This document shows positions 40,031 through 41,236 of a DNA stretch of 64,000 nucleotides, in pieces. The position numbers and the translations under genes are program-made. The stretch's first letter is position 1. Each line of letters opens with the position of its first letter. The stretch covers positions 1 to 64,000 of the forward strand of contig NZ_SBJH01000071.1 in the NCBI RefSeq assembly GCF_004368405.1, read 5' to 3'. The notes below the pieces were generated by a model, which ran no database searches, was not told where the DNA came from, and was given only the letters and a program-made list of their open reading frames with translations. This DNA is from Olivibacter sp. XZL3. Lineage in GTDB: Bacteria; Bacteroidota; Bacteroidia; Sphingobacteriales; Sphingobacteriaceae.

Positions 40031-40474
40031 TTAATTGTTCCAGGGTGCATCACCACTTACAGTGATACCCATACTACGCGCCGTACCTGCAACCATTTTC
40101 ATGGCCGACTCTACTGTAAACGCATTCAAGTCGCTCATTTTATCCTTAGCGATAGTTTCTACTTGTTCCCAAGTAACTTTGCCTACTTTTTTACGGTTAG
40201 GCTCGCCTGACCCTCCTTTTATCCCGGCAACCTCTATAAGTTGCACAGCAACCGGGGGAGTCTTAATGATAAAATCGAAAGACTTATCAGCATATACAGT
40301 AATTACAACTGGTAATACCTTGCCTGGCTTGTCTTGGGTACGTGCATTAAACTGCTTGCAAAACTCCATGATGTTCACCCCTTTTGCACCTAACGCAGGC
40401 CCTACCGGGGGTGATGGATTAGCTGCGCCACCCTTCACCTGTAATTTCACTAACGCACTGACTTCTTTTGCCAT
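40031..40474 (-). CDS. rplK: 50S ribosomal protein L11
   Basis: Part of the GTPase-associated centre of the large subunit, target of thiopeptide antibiotics. The 147 residues have the proline-rich N-terminal domain ([20 protein letters not shown]) and the C-terminal rRNA-binding domain ([15 protein letters not shown]). It is the first gene of the rplKAJL-rpoBC transcript; a consensus promoter lies at 40589-40619, leaving a leader of about 105 bases with two short palindromes (AGGCCTACTAGGCC-type at 40552-40567 and CTCTAAAAAAGAG at 40572-40584). Confidence 0.98.
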
Positions 40475-40588
40475 TTTCGATTTAAATTTAAATTACTAAA
40501 TGTTTGTTAGTAAGTTGGAAGCAATATAACGTAACATTTGTTTTCTAATCAAGTGGCCTAGTAGGCCTTAACTCTTTTTTAGAGTGCG

Positions 40589-40619
40589 CAAAAATACAAC
40601 AAAATTCAGAACTAACAAA
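40589..40619 (-). promoter_or_regulatory. Promoter of the rplK-rpoC operon
   Basis: On the minus strand TTTG (40619-40616), 19 bases, TATTTTTG (40596-40589). This is a full consensus and lies inside the hairpin that follows nusG: the -7 box overlaps the end of its 3' arm and the T-run. Confidence 0.78.
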
Positions 40620-40653
40620 ATGTTTTTTGTAAAAATCTGAATTCTGTTGTATT
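40593..40653 (-). terminator. Long stem-loop after nusG, overlapping the rplK promoter
   Basis: AATACAACAAAATTCAGA (40593-40610) and TCTGAATTCTGTTGTATT (40636-40653) form an 18-position stem with a 25-base loop; on the minus strand a TTTTT run follows. It looks like a terminator or attenuator for the tuf-secE-nusG transcript. Confidence 0.65.
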
Positions 40654-40690
40654 ATGCGAAAAGATATCTTGTTGGGATAGAGTAAAGTTA

Positions 40691-41236
40691 TTACTCCTTT
40701 TCAACTTGCATATAATTTAGTTCCAAAGGTGTCTTTCTACCAAACACTTTAACCATCACCTTCAATTTCTTCTTCTCCTCGTTCACCTCTTCTATTTCAC
40801 CTGAAAAGCCATTGAACGGCCCATCGGTCACTTTTACGGATTCCCCTACATAATAAGGGACATTCATCATCTCCCCCTGCTCGCTCATCTCATCAACAGT
40901 ACCAAGGATACGGTTAACCTCTGCTTGGCGTAAAGGAATAGCATTGCCTGCTTTATCGCCTAAAAACCCTATAACGCTATTTATATTTTTTATTACGTGT
41001 TCTAACTCACCGTCTAAAGCCGCTTCTAGTAATACGTAGCCAGGATAATAATTACGCTCTTTAGCGATCTTTTTCCCTTCCCGCATTTGGAAATATTTTT
41101 CCATGGGAATCAAAACCTGCGGAACCAAATGATTTATTCCCAAACGATTAATCTCAGCCTCAATATATTGCTTTACTTTCTTCTCCTTACCGCTTACCGC
41201 GCGTACAACATACCATTTCAATTGCTGATCTGCCAT
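40691..41236 (-). CDS. nusG: Transcription termination/antitermination protein NusG
   Basis: Binds RNA polymerase and links it to Rho or the ribosome. The 181 residues have the NGN domain (KWYVVRAVSGKEKKVKQYIE, then YPGYVLLEAALDGELEHVI) and the C-terminal KOW domain (GESVKVTDGPFNGFSGEIEE). It follows secE by 18 bases, the standard secE-nusG pair. A large stem-loop overlapping the next promoter lies 37 bases downstream. Confidence 0.97.
   Translation of the reverse strand: MADQQLKWYVVRAVSGKEKKVKQYIEAEINRLGINHLVPQVLIPMEKYFQMREGKKIAKERNYYPGYVLLEAALDGELEHVIKNINSVIGFLGDKAGNAIPLRQAEVNRILGTVDEMSEQGEMMNVPYYVGESVKVTDGPFNGFSGEIEEVNEEKKKLKVMVKVFGRKTPLELNYMQVEKE

Follow-up and report, generated by a model that had tools for sequence, protein, structure and literature searches.

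Background

In E. coli, the promoter of rplKAJL-rpoBC lies downstream of secE-nusG, and to our knowledge it has not been described as nested in an intrinsic terminator. Intrinsic termination releases the RNA 7-9 nt past the stem of the hairpin, and promoters of Bacteroidota carry TTTG as the -33 box. Their -7 box, TAnnTTTG, is placed at -12 to -5 in F. psychrophilum (PMC9723704). Two studies of polymerase recycling used single-molecule assays. In one, 37% of intrinsic termination events, or 55% with added sigma-70, were followed by a downstream restart of the polymerase, which had stayed on the DNA (Kang 2020, PMC6978380); in the other, restarts were mostly antisense, and these were also studied by RNA sequencing (Harden 2020, PMC6978322). 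Our own literature search, made by narrow phrase matching in open-licence PMC full text and judged by titles and the openings of abstracts, listed no paper on a promoter nested in or overlapping a terminator, nor on such an arrangement at nusG-rplK.

In this study, we report the analysis of a 64,000-nucleotide stretch of DNA from Olivibacter sp. XZL3 (contig NZ_SBJH01000071.1, hereafter the window), and describe an element between nusG and rplK which is probably both a terminator of tuf-secE-nusG transcripts and, nested in it, the promoter of rplKAJL-rpoBC.

Sequences and methods

The nusG-rplK spacers surveyed were 151 unique sequences, mostly from Sphingobacteriaceae, and 66 parsed from 69 class-wide loci, giving 217 in total; spacer parsing failed for 18 of 191 loci and for 3 of the 69 class-wide ones. 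Genus assignments (g1, g14, g15, g16) were inferred from likeness to named contigs, and the sample of the window genus (g1) comprised five genomes. For the Pedobacter and Mucilaginibacter searches, 70 of the listed genomes of g14 (Pedobacter-type) and 80 of those of g15 were used.

Hairpin and promoter between nusG and rplK

The minus strand carries, in order, tuf, tRNA-Trp, a short gene read as secE, nusG, rplK and then rplA, rplJ, rplL, rpoB and rpoC, the last five labelled from gene order; the comparison with relatives was made with NusG and RplK. The NusG protein was 100% identical to that of O. jilunii (locus L002), and the genome is close to Olivibacter. In the window, nusG and rplK are separated by 216 nt. 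An Rfam scan of the window returned tRNAs only at the gathering score; the spacer gave 13 sub-threshold matches, mostly to microRNA models of long stems, and none at the gathering score.

Table 1. Features of the nusG-rplK region, in positions of the window
Feature	Positions	Strand	Remarks
nusG	40691..41236	-	
whole hairpin including outer CGCA/TGCG clamp	40587..40658	-	folds at -30.0; clamp encloses the T-run in the window genome
5' arm of dyad (non-promoter arm)	40636..40653	-	
inner 6-pair stem with 4-nt loop, ACAAAA/TTTTGT	40615..40630	-	arms 40630-40625 and 40620-40615, inside the main loop
-33 box TTTG of rplK promoter	40616..40619	-	in the hairpin loop; three same-dyad genomes have TTTG and the fourth, L084, has CTTG
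3' arm of dyad	40593..40610	-	between the -33 and -7 boxes, extending into the -7 box
-7 box TATTTTTG	40589..40596	-	contains the T-run 40594-40590
predicted rplK transcription start	40584..40585	-	inferred from the box at -12 to -5, as in F. psychrophilum (PMC9723704)
small hairpin ACTCT/AGAGT	40571..40585	-	where the rplK mRNA is predicted to begin
conserved rplK leader AAATGTTAC..GCTTCC..AACATTT	40498..40539	-	
rplK (L11)	40031..40474	-	

A first-pass annotation of this DNA had placed the rplK promoter within an 18-pair inverted repeat whose T-run is part of the -7 box; the boxes lie exactly where it had put them on the minus strand, and the repeat with its T-run was confirmed (Table 1). 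The arms, 18 nt each with 25 nt between them, are 94% complementary, forming 17 Watson-Crick pairs and one G.U. The promoter (TTTG, a 19-nt spacer and TATTTTTG) fits the Bacteroidota pattern of TTTG, 17-21 nt and TAnnTTTG, and sits in the loop and the 3' arm, the T-run being common to the stem foot and the -7 box. The pattern alone was matched five times in the window against 2.66 expected, which is not significant; the weight of the promoter call lies on conservation in the genus and not on the pattern count. A sigma-70 scan was uninformative (16 found, 13.2 expected).

Folded alone as nusG-strand RNA, the hairpin reached -30.5 kcal/mol against -9.3 +/- 2.4 for shuffled sequences (z -8.96; none of 200 as good). 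Measured against the about 6-8 U that directly follow the stem of an intrinsic terminator, its U-tract is short, being TTTTT with two bases paired at the stem foot and three unpaired beyond the 18-pair stem, followed by GCGC; the outer clamp would bury this tract. Because the U-tract is poor, termination at the window hairpin may be partial. The dyad site was absent from the list of a terminator scan that considered loops of 3-8 nt only.

Position of the hairpin within its genome

In the genome, 48 of 58 strict promoter-pattern matches were folded with their context, namely all 18 TTTG-N18-20-TANNTTTGCG (TTTGCG-type) matches and 30 of 40 TTTGCA-type matches. The rplK hairpin was the strongest (-30.0, followed by -20.2 and -17.7), and none of the 47 other matches examined had an overlapping hairpin as strong. 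A genome-wide habit of nested promoters was rejected on these 48 of 58 matches. As a reversed control pattern gave 10 matches against the 18 of TTTGCG-type, many of the latter are expected to be chance; the control for the TTTGCA-type gave 3 against 40. A repeat or mobile element was likewise rejected, since an 86-nt query matched itself alone in the genome and the dyad pattern occurred at one place per genome.

Conservation within the genus

A search of 399 family genomes found the dyad pattern in four, at one place each, all in genus g1 and all at nusG-rplK. The first-pass annotation had named non-conservation of the dyad as a ground for giving up its reading; the dyad is conserved in four of the five genomes of g1, and the remaining 395 of the 399 gave no match to the sequence pattern. 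The fifth member, L087, carries a different and weaker hairpin (-15.4) with a poor T-run, ending at its own -7 box.

Among the four same-dyad genomes, pairwise identity was 89-94% in the 5' arm and 100% in the 3' arm plus box. The upstream flank reached 44-75%, the loop 52-81% and the rplK leader 94-97%. The 5' arm differs at three places, all A to G and each keeping a G.U pair; the probability of this was 0.017 under uniform substitution and 0.47 with transitions only, and taken alone these changes are suggestive, weak evidence of pairing. The inner loop stem was predicted in each of the four genomes folded singly; in the aligned consensus it had three inner pairs with two-sided change, and five of its seven pairs were broken or gapped in one of the four sequences. 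The outer clamp is shorter in L002, and none was visible by eye in the spacers of L084 and L085.

A near-perfect dyad around a promoter, with an inter-box spacer conserved in four species, would also suit a DNA operator, a palindrome bound by a dimeric regulator of the rplK promoter. Operators often recur in a genome, and conservation of both half-sites and recurrence at other promoters would be expected; the dyad stands at one place per genome, and its changes are confined to the non-promoter arm with RNA pairing kept. The 18-nt arms enclose a loop of 24-26 nt that changes freely, and arm sequences differ between genera. We regard an operator as very unlikely.

Survey of nusG-rplK spacers

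Under a strict rule, a TANNTTTGC box at a fitting place was found in 58 of the 217 spacers. A strong nested hairpin (<= -14) accompanied it in 22 of these, its 3' end falling 2 to 18 bases beyond the point where the box begins, and a separate upstream terminator was detected in none of the 22. Among the other 36 box-bearing spacers, 28 had a separate terminator at <= -10, four had weak nested hairpins (two of them with a separate terminator), and in five neither element was found by the scan. The mutual exclusion of nested and separate arrangements had a Fisher probability of 1e-9, uncorrected for descent and with cut-offs set after the values had been seen. The remaining 159 spacers had no strict box, and their rplK is presumably transcribed by read-through from nusG. 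A class-wide feature was rejected, as a strict box occurred in four of the 66 class-level spacers, none with a strong nested hairpin.

Recurrence in Pedobacter and Mucilaginibacter

Nested elements were also found in two other genera. The Pedobacter element reads AGGACTGCAAGAT..ATCTTTGCAGTCC and then T4-5, the run coming after CAGTCC and the -7 box TATCTTTG lying in the 3' arm. In Mucilaginibacter it reads ATTC(A/G)GCCCGTAAAG..CTTTGCGGGC(T/C)GAAT and then T4-7. Compared by eye, neither looks like the Olivibacter dyad, and the position of the stem foot relative to the box also differs; the nested layout apparently had at least three origins, as judged from these sequences.

The Mucilaginibacter pattern was present in 8 of 80 genomes searched, and all eight distinct spacers pair; the dyad core was the search pattern, and the evidence is therefore limited to the outer pairs. 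One outer pair covaries, being A-T in five, G-C in three and broken in none of the eight.

Sole-stop and insulated loci in Pedobacter

A promoter-plus-leader pattern matched 48 of the 70 g14 genomes, some already in the set, and scoring with earlier loci gave 61 distinct rows, L003 having been excluded beforehand. The search was anchored on the 3' arm and box, and their retention is no result. Where the dyad lies 41-44 nt after the nusG stop and no other terminator was detected, the 10-base core of the 5' arm was fully paired in 21 of 21 rows and a T-run of 4 or more was present in 21 of 21. Among the 40 insulated rows, taken to carry another terminator or an insertion upstream, the core was paired in 12 and a T-run of this length remained in 13. 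The 12 comprise 8 of 26 rows that have another terminator after nusG, and in which the core is still fully paired, and 4 of 14 with nusG not located upstream, counted as insulated without a terminator check; for rows more than 900 nt from nusG, the scan covered the first 300 nt after nusG. Fisher probabilities for sole-stop versus insulated rows were 4e-8 (arm core) and 8e-8 (T-run), uncorrected for descent; the data had been seen before the 10-base core and the cut-offs for T-run and energy were fixed.

On a tree of rplK-rplA, at least seven state changes were counted, and six independent pairs on supported branches went the expected way 5.3 times on average and the opposite way 0 times (sign test, median p 0.06, range 0.03-0.13). 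On a DNA tree of tuf-secE-nusG, the deepest split within Pedobacter has nested rows on either side, and the separate-terminator rows form one clade. The decays of the Pedobacter arm (L037, L043, L047, L049, L052, L054 and others) count against strict conservation. We read this natural experiment, which separates the stop function from the start function but comes from Pedobacter and not from the genus of the window, as suggesting that the non-promoter arm exists to stop transcription.

The hairpin might instead serve RNA processing or stability, protecting the 3' end of the tuf-nusG mRNA or being cut by RNase III, with mostly read-through and an incidental promoter overlap. In favour of this are the long, AT-rich stem and its short U-tract; RNase III sites exist in this operon in E. 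coli, and read-through from nusG to rplK would be the common state if the boxless spacers are any guide. The Pedobacter and Mucilaginibacter counterparts, however, have T-runs of 4-7 at the stem foot, and the decay of both arm and T-run where another stop is present fits termination better than processing, which we consider unlikely.

Open reading frames between nusG and rplK, following a terminator-like hairpin, were observed in eight Pedobacter loci (L038, L041, L042, L045, L053, L054, L071 and L080), several with a lipoprotein-like start, e.g. MRKIYALLKQ...CKKD. The Pedobacter site seems to accept insertions once insulated.

Geometry of the nested element

The first-pass annotation's central proposal, that the same bases act as terminator and promoter, is supported by three comparisons: the genus keeps the dyad, two further genera have the layout in other sequences, and Pedobacter loses the arm where another stop is present. 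These, together with the two elements and their overlap, can be read from the sequences. Under the nested reading, tuf-secE-nusG transcripts would fold into an AT-rich hairpin, and the spacer and -7 box of the rplKAJL-rpoBC promoter would double as its 3' arm and U-run; many polymerases would stop there, and new sigma-A polymerases would start rplK from the same bases. The rplK-initiated RNA would begin just downstream of the stem, without the hairpin, and should escape termination because it is without the 5' arm (in Olivibacter, without the whole stem).

From the F. psychrophilum position of the box, the start in the window is expected at about 40584. Relative to the predicted start, the stem ends at about -9 in the four Olivibacter genomes, -11 in L087, +2 to +4 in Pedobacter and +6 in Mucilaginibacter. 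The RNA end is thereby predicted at about -4 to +15 of the rplK start, so that a terminating polymerase would sit on the rplK promoter, and by this geometry initiation and termination could not occupy the promoter together. For the window species, we infer termination at the hairpin and its efficiency, the transcription start, and a brief occlusion of the rplK promoter by terminating polymerase. The mutual exclusion that the first-pass annotation had invoked, coupling translation-factor and RNA-polymerase operons, follows from geometry only.

The overlap could also be a space-saving or chance arrangement without consequence, in which terminator and promoter are each needed and share bases, and polymerases neither interfere nor pass over. 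Separate arrangements do exist in Sphingobacterium (L006), in genus g16 and in 5 of 9 rows of genus g4. The 22 nested spacers, however, are 123-229 nt long, so space is not short, and the apparently three origins, with the predicted RNA release close to the start, further speak against an inconsequential overlap, which we hold to be very unlikely.

On the nested reading, a further step may be imagined. After termination of tuf-secE-nusG, RNA polymerase would remain at the rplKAJL-rpoBC promoter with the active centre no more than about 15 bp from the start, and a recycling polymerase charged with sigma could restart at once. We put such a hand-off forward tentatively and think it rather doubtful. 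If it were true, the output of the RNA-polymerase operon would track how often polymerases finish the elongation-factor operon, and selection for it would explain nested elements made from different sequences in three genera.

Other features of the spacers

The rplK leader of the window had no Rfam match. Its GCTTCC, which lies shortly before rplK and appears to be part of a hairpin whose arms vary, occurs in 182 of 217 spacers (31 of the 66 class-wide), and many spacers without it are very short. This may be an autoregulatory leader of the uL1 type in Bacteroidia; uL1 sites before rplK are described for other phyla in a 2024 review (PMC10931766). The small ACTCT/AGAGT hairpin has counterparts, seen by eye, at the same place but of different sequence in L084, L085 and genus g4, and is perhaps a 5'-end stabiliser. 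L006, L176 and L177 (Sphingobacterium and genus g16) carry, besides a separate terminator after nusG, another AT-rich hairpin upstream of rplK, and its T-run ends in the -33 box. Near-repeat spacers, with direct and inverted copies (e.g. AGTATCAAGTA or TCAAATCTCATATCT), were seen in L005 and L018 (Mucilaginibacter), L064 (Pedobacter arcticus) and others.

Comparison with known systems

Where two essential operons meet, the same bases would carry both a stop and a start signal, an arrangement apparently reached more than once. If transcription confirms it, these loci would be natural templates for asking about same-direction restart of polymerase after termination in cells.

The element resembles an intrinsic terminator in that an operon ends in a stable RNA hairpin and then T's, and, in the Pedobacter counterpart, in that the upstream arm is kept where it is the sole detected stop; it differs in its AT-rich stem, structured loop and a U-tract that is only TTTTT and is common to the -7 box. 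It likewise has both boxes and the 19-nt spacing of a Bacteroidota sigma-A promoter (for the -7 box, PMC9723704), but its spacer and -7 box also serve as the 3' arm of a conserved hairpin. With E. coli, the locus shares a separate promoter of the rplK operon after nusG. With post-termination recycling, it shares the presence of both a terminator and a promoter on one DNA, where a polymerase retained after release can restart nearby; those elements are separate there and overlap here, and the hand-off at this locus is hypothetical.
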